Of a stretch of 64,000 nucleotides of DNA, positions 34,004 through 39,167 are shown piece after piece (the first letter of the stretch is position 1; every line of letters begins with the position of its first letter). A program made the translations under genes and the position numbers. Source of the DNA: Parafannyhessea umbonata (GTDB lineage Bacteria > Actinomycetota > Coriobacteriia > Coriobacteriales > Atopobiaceae); contig NZ_FOGP01000004.1 of the NCBI RefSeq assembly GCF_900111255.1, positions 186,001 through 250,000 on the forward strand, written 5' to 3'. Below the pieces are notes generated by a model. The model was not told the origin of the DNA, did not search any database, and saw only the letters and a list, made by a program, of their open reading frames with translations.

Positions 34004-34921
34004 CTAGACGCCGCGGAAGCCCCTGCCGATGATTTCCGAGCTGCTGACGATGGTGATGAACGCGTCTGGGTCGTTGTCGCGCAGGAAGACGCGCAGCTGC
34101 TTGGCTTCGCTGCGAGAAAGGACGGAGACCAGAACCGTCTCGCGCTTTCCGGTGAAGCCGCCACGCTCTTCTCGAATGGTTGCGGTGCGATGGAGGTTCC
34201 TGACCAGGTAGGTCAGCACGGTGTCGGGGTCTCGGCTGATGACGGTGCAGACCTTGCGCTGGTTGACGCTCTCGATGACGGTATCGACCACGAAGGCCTT
34301 GCCAAACAGGCCGAGCACGCAGTAGAGGCCGGTGCGTGGCCCATACAGGGTTGCGGCACCGGCGACGATGGCGGCGTCGACCACCATGAGGGCCTTTCCG
34401 ATTTCGAGCGAGCTGTACTTCTTCAGGATCATCGCCAGGATGTCGGTGCCACCCGTCGACGCGCCGATGTTGAAGATGATGCCGCTGCCCACGGCCGGAA
34501 GCAGCACGGCGAAGATGAGCTCGAGCAAGGTGTCGTCCGTCATGGGGCCGCTCAGGTGAATGGCGATCTCGAGCAACGAGGTGAACGCCGAGAGTGCCAG
34601 CGACGAGTATACGGTCCAGCCGATGGTCTTCCTGTCCAGGAAGATTAGGCCGAGCACGACCAGGATGATGTTGATGACCCACATGAACGCGCTGACCGGC
34701 AGGGTGGGGAAGAGCGTCGAGAGGATGATCGACATGCCCGATGTGCCGCCCATGGCGAAGTGGTTGGGCGACTTGAAGGCGACGATGCCCAATGCCGTGA
34801 TGAAGAGGCCCACATTGAGGGTGATGAAGAAACGCGCGGGAGAGGGCTTCTCGCGCCTGCGCGATATCTTCCCGCCTTCCTCTATCTCGCTGTCGGACAA
34901 TTGCTCTTGTATTGGCTGCAT
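34004..34921 (-). CDS. YitT family membrane protein
   Basis: 305 residues. After a hydrophilic N-terminus there are five or six membrane segments (about 25-200) with the YitT pattern SPNHFAMGGTSGMSIIL and ASTGGTDILAMILKKY. A cytoplasmic DUF2179 domain follows (about 215-300, VCTVISRDPDTVLTYLVRNL). The function of the family is not known; transport has been suggested. ATG at 34921 is chosen because the upstream frame shows no similarity, though a GTG at 34942 is possible. Convergent with aguA and divergent from the next operon. Confidence 0.85.
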   Translation of the reverse strand: MQPIQEQLSDSEIEEGGKISRRREKPSPARFFITLNVGLFITALGIVAFKSPNHFAMGGTSGMSIILSTLFPTLPVSAFMWVINIILVVLGLIFLDRKTIGWTVYSSLALSAFTSLLEIAIHLSGPMTDDTLLELIFAVLLPAVGSGIIFNIGASTGGTDILAMILKKYSSLEIGKALMVVDAAIVAGAATLYGPRTGLYCVLGLFGKAFVVDTVIESVNQRKVCTVISRDPDTVLTYLVRNLHRTATIREERGGFTGKRETVLVSVLSRSEAKQLRVFLRDNDPDAFITIVSSSEIIGRGFRGV

Positions 34922-35147
34922 ATTACATTCTTTCTTACTCACGCAAGCGCTGGCGCGCCTTTCATTTCCAACCGTTGCATTCGTTATATTTGAACGGCAC
35001 TTCGAAAGACTGATTCGGCTGGGGTGGCAAGTCAACCAGTTCTCGCGGACCTGCACATAATAGTCCATAAACGGAGCGAACGGGGTAGAATGGTCCCAAC
35101 ACGGCCAACGGTCGCTGGCACGGCCCCTGCGCACTTGGAGGAACAAC

Positions 35148-35267
35148 GTGAAACGCGGTACTAAGTCCGGTGCACTTATTCAGCGTCGGGCGCTTATGCC
35201 CGCCGCGCGCGGGGTCATGGTTGCCGTCGGCGTCTCCCTGACGGTCGGGAGGTGTGCGCTCAGGTGA
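35148..35267 (+). CDS. 39-residue basic peptide overlapping the glycosyltransferase start
   Basis: GTG at 35148 has a strong TTGGAGGAAC site. The reading frame encodes 39 residues, beginning MKRGTKSGALIQRRALMP, with a short hydrophobic stretch GVMVAVGVSLTVG near the end and nine positive charges. Its TGA overlaps the GTG start of the glycosyltransferase (GTGA), which indicates translational coupling. It may be a leader peptide that sets translation of the downstream gene, or a small membrane or regulatory protein. No family is recognised. The site strength and exact overlap are the evidence that it is translated. Confidence 0.55.
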   Translation: MKRGTKSGALIQRRALMPAARGVMVAVGVSLTVGRCALR

Positions 35268-36490
35268 ATCCCGCCATCGTCATCCCCTCCTATTGGGCCG
35301 AAACCGACCAGCCTACCGAAATCGGAGAGGCTGGCGTCTACGACCACGTCACTCCCATCACGAAGCCGGTTCCCGAGCTCGAGACCTGTCTCAGGTCCCT
35401 GGAGGCGGTCCGTGGCGTGCTGAGGGTTATCGTCTTGCTCGTTGCGCCCGCGGAGTGCGAGGAGTCTGCCCGCGCACGCGTCGACGCGATCTGCCGGCAG
35501 CACCTCTCGCTGAGCCCCATCGTCATCGGCAGCCGCGAGGGTTCCATCGTGAGCGGGGCGGTCGAGAAGGTGGTTCCGCGCATGGACGCCGACTACGTCT
35601 CCCTGCGCGGCTATGGCGCCATTCGCAATATGGGTCTTGCGATTGCGGCCATGCTCAACCATGACGTGGTCGTCTTCCTGAACGATGACGAGGTCGTTCT
35701 GGACGAGAACTTCCTTATTGACGCGGTCTACGGAATCGGCTCGATCACGCGGCAGGGCATCCCCATCCGCTGCAAGAGCGGCCTGTTTCTTGACTGGCAG
35801 AACTCGCCCTACGCAAACGTTGGCCGTCCGCGCTGGTCCGAGCGCCTTTGGTCGAAGCGTATAGAGTTCAACCAGTGGATGCACCGCGCCCTGACGGGAA
35901 CGCGCATATCGCGTGCCAACTCCCTGTGCGGCGGGTGTTTCGTCGTGAGTGCGGAGGCCTATACCAAGGTTCCATTTGATCCCATCATCAGCAGGGGAGA
36001 AGACCTTGACTACCTCTTCAACCTCCGCATGAACGGCATAGATGTCTGGATTGACAACGCCTGGCGCGTGCGCCACCTCCCCCCGGACCTCCCCCAGACG
36101 GCCGAGCATTTCGTGCAGGGGGTCTACCGGTGGAGCTACGAGACCGAGAAGATTGCCGCGGCCAATGCTACGCCTGGCATCAGGCAGATTCGCGCGGAGT
36201 CGCTCAGGCCGTATCCCTCGGGCTGGATTTCGCCTGACGTGCATCGCCGTATCCGTGGGACGGCGTTCCGTCGGGCGCTTGTGGGGCCCCAGCGGCTTGC
36301 ATATCTTAAGATACTGTTGTCGGGTCACCGCCGCGCTCGAGCGTGGGCAAAGGAGCACTCGACTGAGTACTTCTCGTTTCAAACGTACTGGCCCCGCATC
36401 ATGTCGGATCTTTGGGACAGTAAACTGCTTGCCAAGAGACTGCTCAACATGGCGTCTCCAAAACCCGTCGAGGGGGGTTCTCGCTCGTGA
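35264..36490 (+). CDS. Glycosyltransferase family 2-like protein
   Basis: 408 residues with a GT-A type fold. N-terminal VNPAIVIPSYW starts the nucleotide-binding half. FLNDDEVVLDENF contains the metal-binding acidic motif, and SRGEDLDYLFNLRMNG and WIDNAWRVRHLP form the acceptor side with the ED pair. No membrane segment is seen. Target is unknown: cell-wall polysaccharide or glycolipid are options. GTG at 35264 is chosen for the GTGA overlap with the upstream peptide gene; an alternative GTG at 35252 sits on top of the GGGAGG site. Its own stop overlaps the lytS-type gene by four bases. Confidence 0.75.
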   Translation: MNPAIVIPSYWAETDQPTEIGEAGVYDHVTPITKPVPELETCLRSLEAVRGVLRVIVLLVAPAECEESARARVDAICRQHLSLSPIVIGSREGSIVSGAVEKVVPRMDADYVSLRGYGAIRNMGLAIAAMLNHDVVVFLNDDEVVLDENFLIDAVYGIGSITRQGIPIRCKSGLFLDWQNSPYANVGRPRWSERLWSKRIEFNQWMHRALTGTRISRANSLCGGCFVVSAEAYTKVPFDPIISRGEDLDYLFNLRMNGIDVWIDNAWRVRHLPPDLPQTAEHFVQGVYRWSYETEKIAAANATPGIRQIRAESLRPYPSGWISPDVHRRIRGTAFRRALVGPQRLAYLKILLSGHRRARAWAKEHSTEYFSFQTYWPRIMSDLWDSKLLAKRLLNMASPKPVEGGSRS

Positions 36491-37836
36491 ATCGTTGGCT
36501 TTCTGCGCACTACGGCTCGCTGATGCACATTGGACTCGTCCTGGTCACCATCGTTCTTCTCGCCCTGCTCTCCTGGGGCCTCATCGCCAGCAACCTCTTT
36601 GCGGCGATGATTGCTGGCGCGGGTTTGGCCATCGACATCGTTCTTGGCGGCACCAACCTGTTGGTTCCCGATGATTTGCGATCTCAGGCGACCGAGCGCA
36701 CGCTGCGCGTTGCTTCGGGCACGCTTGCCCACATGGCGGGCGGCCTCACTCCCGAGGGCTGCGTCGCGGTATGCCAGCTGCTGCTCCCCGAGACCTCGGC
36801 TGCGGCCATTGCGATGACCGACGTGATCCAGACGATGGCCTACGTGGGCGGCGAAACGCTGGGCACCCATGCCGGCGTGCCCAACACCGCCCCGACGCGC
36901 GAGGTCATTTCCAGCGGGCGCATGCAGACCTTCAGCTCGCTCGACCGCGACGAGCGCAACCTGCTCGCGGCATCCGCAAGGCCGGTTGACGGCGATGCGC
37001 AGGGGGACGACCTCTATCCCATCGGCATCATCGCGCCACTGACCGTTGCCGACCGCACCGTGGGAACGCTGAAGCTCTACTACCGTCACGCCCGTGAGGT
37101 AGACAGGACCCAGCTGACCATCGCGCGTGGCTTTGCCGAGCTCCTCTCCACGCAGCTCTCTACGTACGAGCTGGACCGCCAGGCCGAGCTTACGGCGCGC
37201 GCGGAGGTCAAGGCCCTGCAGGCGCAGATCAACCCGCATTTCCTCTTCAACACGCTCAACACCATCGCTGCGCTGACCCGCACCGACCCCACGAAGGCGC
37301 GCAACGTGCTGCGCGAGTTCTCGTCCTTCTACCGACGCACGCTCGAAAGCAGCTCAAAGAGCCTCATTCCCCTGTTCGAGGAGCTCGAGCAGACGCGTCG
37401 CTACCTGACCATCGAGAAAGCCCGCTTCGGCGAGGACCGCATCGTGGAGACCGAGGCCGTCGAGGAAGGCTGCGGCGAGGTCATGGTTCCGGGCTTCATT
37501 GTGCAGCCCATTGTCGAGAACGCCGTGCGCCACGCCATGCGCGACGAGGGGCCGCTCCGTATTGACATCCAAGTGGTCCGCGACGGCGACGACGTCATGC
37601 TTGCCGTCGTCGACGACGGAAACGGCATGGACGAGTCCGTTGCCGAGAGACTTCTCGAGGGATCGTCGCAGAACTCCTCGAGCGAGTCCAAGGGCACGGG
37701 CATCGCCCTGCGCAACGTCGCCGAGCGCATCGAGCGCTTCTACGGTAAGGGCTCGGGAGTCGAGATCATGAGCAAGGTGGGCGAGGGGACGAGCGTCACG
37801 CTGCGCCTAAAGGGGGCCGCTCCCGCGCACGAGTAG
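36487..37836 (+). CDS. LytS/YehU-type sensor histidine kinase
   Basis: 449 residues. Two hydrophobic segments near the N-terminus (about 12-55), then a GAF-like cytoplasmic domain (about 70-230). The His_kinase domain has the phosphoacceptor in INPHFLFNTLNT near residue 249, followed by a HATPase domain with IVQPIVENAVRHAM, DDGNGMD and GTGIALRNV. Kinases of this class pair with LytTR regulators, as here. The GTG overlaps the stop of the glycosyltransferase gene (GTGA), an unusual coupling of an enzyme with a sensor. The short membrane part differs from the 5TM-LYT sensor of classical LytS. Confidence 0.92.
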   Translation: MNRWLSAHYGSLMHIGLVLVTIVLLALLSWGLIASNLFAAMIAGAGLAIDIVLGGTNLLVPDDLRSQATERTLRVASGTLAHMAGGLTPEGCVAVCQLLLPETSAAAIAMTDVIQTMAYVGGETLGTHAGVPNTAPTREVISSGRMQTFSSLDRDERNLLAASARPVDGDAQGDDLYPIGIIAPLTVADRTVGTLKLYYRHAREVDRTQLTIARGFAELLSTQLSTYELDRQAELTARAEVKALQAQINPHFLFNTLNTIAALTRTDPTKARNVLREFSSFYRRTLESSSKSLIPLFEELEQTRRYLTIEKARFGEDRIVETEAVEEGCGEVMVPGFIVQPIVENAVRHAMRDEGPLRIDIQVVRDGDDVMLAVVDDGNGMDESVAERLLEGSSQNSSSESKGTGIALRNVAERIERFYGKGSGVEIMSKVGEGTSVTLRLKGAAPAHE

Positions 37837-37959
37837 CGTCTTGGCCCTGGGCACTAATACAATTGCTTGACGCATTGTCAAATAGACGCAGTTGTCAGCT
37901 AAAGGTAAGATTGAGGATGTTGTTGTTGTGTGCCCGCGCCCGCGGGCAAGGAAAGTTGG

Positions 37960-38706
37960 GTGATTCACGTGCTTAATGCTCTCATTGTCGACGACGAAGC
38001 CCCCGCCCGCTCTGAGCTTAGGTTCCTCCTGGAGGAAACCGGGCGCATTGGCAACATCGAAGAGGCTTCCAACGCCCGCGAGGCCGTCGAGGCTCTGGTC
38101 AGGAGTCGTGAGGGAACCGACGCCCGCACCGATGTGCTGTTCCTGGACATCTCGATGCCCAAGACCTCTGGCATGCAGCTTGCCGAGGCGCTCCACAAGC
38201 TCAAGAACCCGCCTGCGGTCGTCTTCGTCACCGCGTACAGCGAGTATGCGGTCGAGGCCTTCAGCGTCGACGCCGTCGACTACCTCATGAAGCCCGTTGA
38301 GACCGACCGTCTGAACCACGCCCTCGACAAGGTCGAGACGCGCGTCAAGCCCTCCGGTGGCAATCATGGTGCGGTCGAGCGCATCCCGGTCGAAAAGGGC
38401 GGCCGCAAGGTCCTCGTCCCCATCGACCAGATTCGCTACATCGAGGCCAAGGACGACTACTCCTGCATCTACACCGACTCCGATCGTTACCTCTCGACCA
38501 TCTCACTCGCCAAGCTCGAGCAGAAGCTGGTTCCCCACGGCTTCTTCCGCGTGCATCGTGGCTACATCGTCAACCTCGAGCACGTCGAGGACGTTGAGGT
38601 CATCTCCAGCGGAATCCTCCAGCTCGGCCTCAAGGGCATCGAGGACAAGAAGATTCCCGTGTCGCGTCGTCGCGTCGTCGCCCTCAAACGCGCTCTCGGC
38701 CTCTAG
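37960..38706 (+). CDS. LytTR-family response regulator
   Basis: 248 residues. Receiver domain (1-125) with acidic pocket VDDE, phosphoacceptor Asp near 62 in LFLDISMP, and K in LMKPVE. The LytTR DNA-binding domain (about 145-245) has IRYIEAKDDYSCIY and FFRVHRGYIVNL. The GTG giving MIHVLNAL is preceded by AAGGAAAG and is preferred over a GTG ten codons upstream. It follows the kinase gene after a 123-base gap that contains TTGACG and possible half-sites (CAGTTGT), so it may also have its own promoter. Confidence 0.93.
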   Translation: MIHVLNALIVDDEAPARSELRFLLEETGRIGNIEEASNAREAVEALVRSREGTDARTDVLFLDISMPKTSGMQLAEALHKLKNPPAVVFVTAYSEYAVEAFSVDAVDYLMKPVETDRLNHALDKVETRVKPSGGNHGAVERIPVEKGGRKVLVPIDQIRYIEAKDDYSCIYTDSDRYLSTISLAKLEQKLVPHGFFRVHRGYIVNLEHVEDVEVISSGILQLGLKGIEDKKIPVSRRRVVALKRALGL

Positions 38707-38714
38707 CGAGCGTC

Positions 38715-39167
38715 ATGCGCTACGACATCGTTTCCGACACGCACGGGCACATCTCGGAGGAGCTTGAGTCGGCGCTCCAGGGTGCGGACGTCATCGTTCA
38801 CGCGGGAGACATCTGCTCGGACATCGACCTTCTGCACCTCGAGACCATCGCCCCTGTCCATGCGTGCTACGGCAACAACGACTGGGGCTACGACTACGGT
38901 CCGTTCGTGATGCACAACATCACGCGTTTCTTCTCGGAGGGGCTTCGCTGGGAGATTTGCCACTATCGCGAGCGGCTTGACCTCGAGACTTGCGAGGTTG
39001 CCGTCTGCGGGCACACCCATCGTCCCTTTGTCGAGAAGGACCCGCGTACCGGGGCGCTGGTCATGAATCCTGGCAGCCCGACCTATCCCCGTGCGGGGTA
39101 TCCCTCGATGGGGAGAATCATCGTGGAGAAAGGCACCATTCTGAGTGCCGAGATCATCCGTCTTTAG
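38715..39167 (+). CDS. YfcE/MJ0936-type metallophosphodiesterase
   Basis: 150-residue calcineurin-like enzyme with all metal motifs: SDTHGH near the N-terminus, HAGDIC, YGNND, and CGHTHRPF followed by NPGSPTYPR. Members hydrolyse phosphodiesters, with natural substrates mostly unknown. The ATG is eight bases after the stop of the LytTR regulator gene, so they are likely cotranscribed. A terminator follows. Confidence 0.93.
   Translation: MRYDIVSDTHGHISEELESALQGADVIVHAGDICSDIDLLHLETIAPVHACYGNNDWGYDYGPFVMHNITRFFSEGLRWEICHYRERLDLETCEVAVCGHTHRPFVEKDPRTGALVMNPGSPTYPRAGYPSMGRIIVEKGTILSAEIIRL

Follow-up and report, generated by a model that had tools for sequence, protein, structure and literature searches.

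A glycosyltransferase and sensor kinase locus of Coriobacteriales that has probably lost queT in Parafannyhessea umbonata

In Parafannyhessea umbonata, of the family Atopobiaceae, a 39-codon reading frame, a glycosyltransferase (GT) gene and a sensor kinase gene follow one another so closely that each stop codon overlaps the next start by 4 nt in a GTGA, and a LytTR regulator gene lies downstream of the kinase without overlap. Do the two overlaps mark one unit of peptide, transferase and kinase, as a preliminary description proposed, and does the arrangement extend beyond this genome? The window examined is a 64,000-nt stretch of the genome referred to here as G000. The coordinates and frames, the Shine-Dalgarno-like TTGGAGGAAC and both 4-nt GTGA overlaps (peptide/GT and GT/kinase) were confirmed on the sequence. 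Our reading, which we hold with a probability of roughly three in four, is that the window carries one variant of a locus that is old in Coriobacteriales, that queT has been lost from it here, that the GT and the kinase are translationally coupled, and that the GT is not required for the kinase. The features are as follows.

34004..34921, minus strand: YitT-family membrane protein gene, divergent, the left border of the locus (Pfam YitT_membrane 5.8e-53, plus DUF2179)
35086..35091, plus strand: TAGAAT, the conserved -10 element in the promoter of the queT/GT operon (distance comparison and flank alignment)
35148..35267, plus strand: 39-codon frame without a homologue in relatives, probably what is left of the 5' end of a deleted queT
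35264..36490, plus strand: GT gene, 408 aa, GT-A fold (Pfam, AlphaFold2 model, order-wide profile)
36487..37836, plus strand: sensor histidine kinase (HK) gene, His_kinase (PF06580) and HATPase_c, its start overlapping the GT stop by 4 nt
37906..37911, plus strand: TAAGAT, the probable -10 of a distinct promoter for the regulator (the string CTAAAGGTAAkAT is kept in L069 and L070)
37960..38706, plus strand: LytTR response regulator (RR) gene, start at 37960 or 37969 (Pfam Response_reg and LytTR)
38715..39167, plus strand: YfcE-type phosphodiesterase gene (TIGR00040 above cut-off), the right member of the conserved block

Both borders recur in relatives. A divergent YitT gene is in the equivalent position in L069, L070, L047, L041, L049 and L051, and in Atopobiaceae and Coriobacteriaceae-type loci of sufficient length, the regulator is almost always followed by yfcE.

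The first overlap, that between the 39-codon frame and the GT, is automatic. The GT starts at GTG 35264 and not at the upstream GTG 35252, and its MNP..VIP motif is near-invariant in 23 relatives. Since the protein begins MNP in essentially all relatives, an A follows the start codon, be it ATG, GTG or TTG (41 of 42 loci), and a TGA is thereby built into the next frame. Any open upstream frame in that register must end there. Many relatives have unrelated frames, 25 to 253 codons long, that end at this point; some have the length of queT and others are plainly meaningless. The overlap is therefore not beyond chance and carries no information. A false lead is thereby set aside, since coupling cannot be read from a frame that stops at a start codon with a built-in TGA.

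The 39-residue product had been put forward as a leader that gates translation or as a small membrane partner of the kinase. A real peptide of this kind, gating GT translation or binding the kinase, would agree with the strong Shine-Dalgarno-like GGAGGA at 35137-35142, the GTG start, the hydrophobic stretch of about 15 residues and the 4-nt overlap, the last of these being automatic. The comparison with relatives speaks against it. By tblastn, the peptide is matched only in the window's own genome, and it is absent from all 42 other family loci compared, so that it shows no amino-acid conservation as a gene. In 14 relatives that lack queT, the promoter stands directly before the GT, at 48-57 nt, which leaves no room for a 39-codon frame. 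Codon-position GC in the frame (0.69, 0.59 and 0.72) is flatter than in the GT, HK or RR genes. The 196-nt leader folds less stably than its shuffles (z = +1.27), with no attenuator-like structure, and no Rfam family was matched in the window region. A structured leader RNA or riboswitch, including preQ1, was also sought upstream of queT in seven relatives, where Rfam matched only tRNAs, and was rejected; the results point to neither a preQ1 switch nor an attenuator. Both proposed roles for the peptide thus fall, and we regard them as very improbable. The frame very probably specifies no functional peptide, and it may still be translated, given that a strong Shine-Dalgarno sequence and a start codon have been kept.

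What, then, is the 39-codon frame? In both same-genus genomes (G001 and G002), queT (PF06177) is found between YitT and the GT, and neither a protein search nor Pfam finds it anywhere in G000. The frame therefore occupies the place of a deleted queT. The TAGAAT -10 element lies 723 and 741 nt from the GT in the same-genus genomes, ahead of queT, and 178 nt from it in the window. The sequence flanking the promoter has clear homologues in L003 and L004, its alignment to them scoring above all 3000 shuffles. The frame itself was matched to the queT 5' ends as ungapped DNA, in register from the start codon, with scores of 12 (L004) and 10 (L003). When 3315 in-frame coding fragments of the window served as the null set, with the start codon as the fixed point and the same diagonal, scores as good or better were obtained for 0.2% (L004), 0.3% (L003) and, for both together, 0.06% of the fragments, a combined chance of ~0.0006. 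A likeness to the QueT N-terminus at the protein level (AR..M.A in register) is convincing by eye, but we rejected it because a profile of 27 QueT N-termini scores the peptide no better than shuffles. An unrestricted DNA alignment of the frame to queT is likewise not significant. Thus, it is position, the absence of queT and the in-register test that lead us to consider the frame quite likely a 5' relic of queT, with no significance contributed by the protein level or the free alignment. Compared with the same-genus gene for the QueT transporter component (PF06177) at exactly this position, the window keeps only the probable 5' remnant and no QueT function.

Two further observations concern queT. 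G000, and also G054 and G055, have no QueT anywhere and retain the tRNA-guanine transglycosylase (TGT), so in these genomes, the queuosine precursor must arrive by another route. A loss of queuosine use as the cause of queT loss was rejected because the genome has kept TGT. In eight other loci (L038, L039, L040, L041, L043, L049, L063 and L064), a frame as long as queT lies upstream and its TGA stop overlaps the GT start by 4 nt, and there queT, the GT and the kinase may be chained by two overlaps.

The second overlap is of a different kind. The GT stop and the nearest kinase start overlap by 1-8 nt in 36 of the 43 Atopobiaceae loci (26 loci at 4 nt, and five each at 1 nt and 8 nt). Over the same family, GT length ranges from 403 to >1200 residues, the variation being in the C-terminal tail. 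That the overlap is kept despite such variable tails is good sequence evidence for translational coupling, which is a common operon arrangement. The overlap is thus more than chance, and the GT and the kinase are probably co-translated. Conservation in relatives, the check suggested for both overlaps in the preliminary description, is found for this one; the other is automatic, and its peptide is absent elsewhere.

The GT genes of individual genomes show some peculiarities. In L034 (999-4685, minus strand, genome G006), the protein is 1229 aa long with an acidic low-complexity tail of ~820 residues, and its stop still overlaps the kinase start codon by 1 nt. In-frame TGA codons inside some relatives' GTs were considered and rejected; in the three that were read, the match runs past the normal stop. 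Genome G111 has two GT copies with identical scores in opposite orientation ~52 kb apart (C1:2102262-2103458, plus strand, and 2153899-2155095, minus strand), representing either an inverted duplication or an assembly artefact. The GT of L075, a relative also named Parafannyhessea umbonata, is 64% identical to that of the window.

The distribution of the pair is wide. With a GT profile (A1), the protein is found in 345 of 395 Coriobacteriales genomes and 109 of 123 genera, almost always as a single copy. The kinase comes after it in all 43 Atopobiaceae loci, followed by the regulator and then yfcE as far as the sequence reaches. Of 25 loci taken from further families of the order, 24 have this kinase behind the GT, and the contig of the 25th ends. 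The two genes adjoin across Atopobiaceae and Coriobacteriaceae-type genomes, and the kinase is directly after the GT in family f3. Most other families, including f4, have one TauE-type gene of ~1 kb in between. Pfam identifies it as a TauE/SafE permease in the single case tested, and the others read are similar in sequence. The same gene set is kept in L138, a locus from a single genome that belongs to a different order of the class. The preliminary description had staked its proposal on finding the GT beside the kinase in relatives, and there it is, in the same order. By gene order and overlap, the GT-kinase pair is genuinely conserved across Coriobacteriales, an order of gut bacteria, and this part of the proposal, the coupling included, stands. 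Two f3 loci, L107 (1-1350) and L109 (50-1780), carry an additional related kinase/LytTR pair ~2-2.5 kb upstream of the GT.

A single-copy GT next to the kinase, or one gene from it, throughout an order, together with a conserved overlap of 1-8 nt, might mean that the two form one functional unit, in which the GT produces or decorates the signal sensed by the kinase, or else the glycan that the kinase monitors, and coupling fixes the ratio of the two proteins. Strict dependence is weakened by the genomes without a GT. Those family members of genera g15, g31 and g2 that have no GT keep queT, kinase, regulator and yfcE in place, and one of genus g5 keeps kinase, regulator and yfcE. The persistence of the kinase and regulator where the GT has been lost suggests that signalling does not require it. 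In addition, the distant GT relatives in other Actinomycetota are not near this kinase. We therefore consider a functional unit of this kind unlikely.

The GT itself falls just short of Pfam Glyco_tranf_2_3 (2.2e-5, 25 bits against a cut-off of 27), which 19 of 23 relatives match at 1e-3. Its AlphaFold2 model (pLDDT 88.7) aligns with many GT-A enzymes (Z 16-20, about 233-291 residues), and the GT-A fold spans residues 1-384. DDE-like and RGED motifs are conserved, and there is no clear membrane helix. As modelled, the protein is a soluble GT-A glycosyltransferase. Mannosyl-3-phosphoglycerate synthase, MtdL and the polypeptide GalNAc-transferases, themselves soluble, share the fold at these Z scores but at only roughly 10-18% identity, and no sequence relative was found among solved structures at E 0.1. 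With many GT-A families tied at low identity and no solved sequence relative, assignment of the substrate from structure was rejected; neither donor nor acceptor can be assigned.

The kinase had been called LytS. The catalytic part of that name holds, with His_kinase (PF06580) at 2.1e-27 and HATPase_c at 7.5e-15, both above cut-off. The input part does not. The 5TMR-LYT domain is characteristic of all LytS-type kinases (PMC10653868), but Pfam finds no match to it (PF07694) up to E = 1 in the kinases of the window and L069, and hydropathy gives about two transmembrane helices at residues ~5-61. A GAF-like region matches GAF_3 and GAF_2 at 2e-4 to 9e-4, below the gathering scores. The name therefore denotes likeness and not membership, and by its domains, the kinase is LytS-like only in the catalytic core. 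BtsS/BtsR and other LytS/LytTR systems have in common with the window the PF06580 and HATPase_c core, to which the window kinase adds a weak GAF match, and a regulator with REC and LytTR domains. They differ in having the 5TMR-LYT input, which the two-helix kinase of the window lacks, and in that LytS/LytTR pairs normally stand alone, whereas this kinase is preceded by a glycosyltransferase.

The regulator was correctly identified as LytTR, having a REC domain (Response_reg, 1.1e-22) followed by LytTR (9.7e-25), both above the Pfam cut-offs; the closest NCBIfam model is BtsR at 9.2e-52, below the BtsR cut-off. In most relatives, homology sets in only at about residue 11-15 of the frame opening at 37930, so the start is probably at 37960 or 37969 instead. 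The regulator has a probable promoter of its own, with TAAGAT as the -10. In the spacer between kinase and regulator (37840-37960), just upstream of this promoter, there is a direct repeat, GACGCAttGTCA / GACGCAgtTGTCA, which is a possible regulator site.

A promoter-like site for the regulator alone would also fit another view, namely that the gene order reflects nothing more than an old shared operon, with the GT, kinase, queT and yfcE functionally unrelated and held together by a common promoter. The loss of queT, the GT or TauE in some lineages while the rest stays points the same way. Against it, the tight overlap kept in spite of variable GT tails suggests selection on coupling. We would put this view at about even odds.

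Under our preferred reading, with queT lost and GT and kinase coupled, the old locus would run queT, GT, sensor kinase, LytTR regulator and yfcE, with a TauE/SafE gene between GT and kinase in some families. Deletion of queT in this species would have left ~110 nt, from the former queT start signal to the GT, and this leftover would by chance read as a 39-codon frame, ended by the TGA built into the GT start. The GT would be translated from its own ribosome site, the Shine-Dalgarno-like GGGAGG at 35247-35252, 11 nt upstream of GTG 35264. Judging by the conserved overlap, a ribosome that has finished the GT most likely goes on to start the kinase. The LytTR regulator would receive phosphate from the kinase and would also be expressed from its own promoter. 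The soluble GT-A enzyme would add a nucleotide-activated sugar to an acceptor, being co-expressed with the kinase and not required for it.

A literature search found no description of the locus. What had been proposed as an undescribed unit therefore survives as GT, kinase and regulator, with the peptide dropped from it; this is a conserved locus, of which the literature searched gives no account, and it is not exotic. A bolder reading, which we consider unlikely, would have a soluble GT and a two-helix, non-5TMR kinase made in fixed ratio throughout Coriobacteriales as a signalling unit, with the kinase reading a glycan-building step and the LytTR regulator adjusting the envelope. With a single-copy GT near this kinase in nearly every Coriobacteriales genome examined, across ten families, the locus is a good target for the genetics of envelope signalling in the order.
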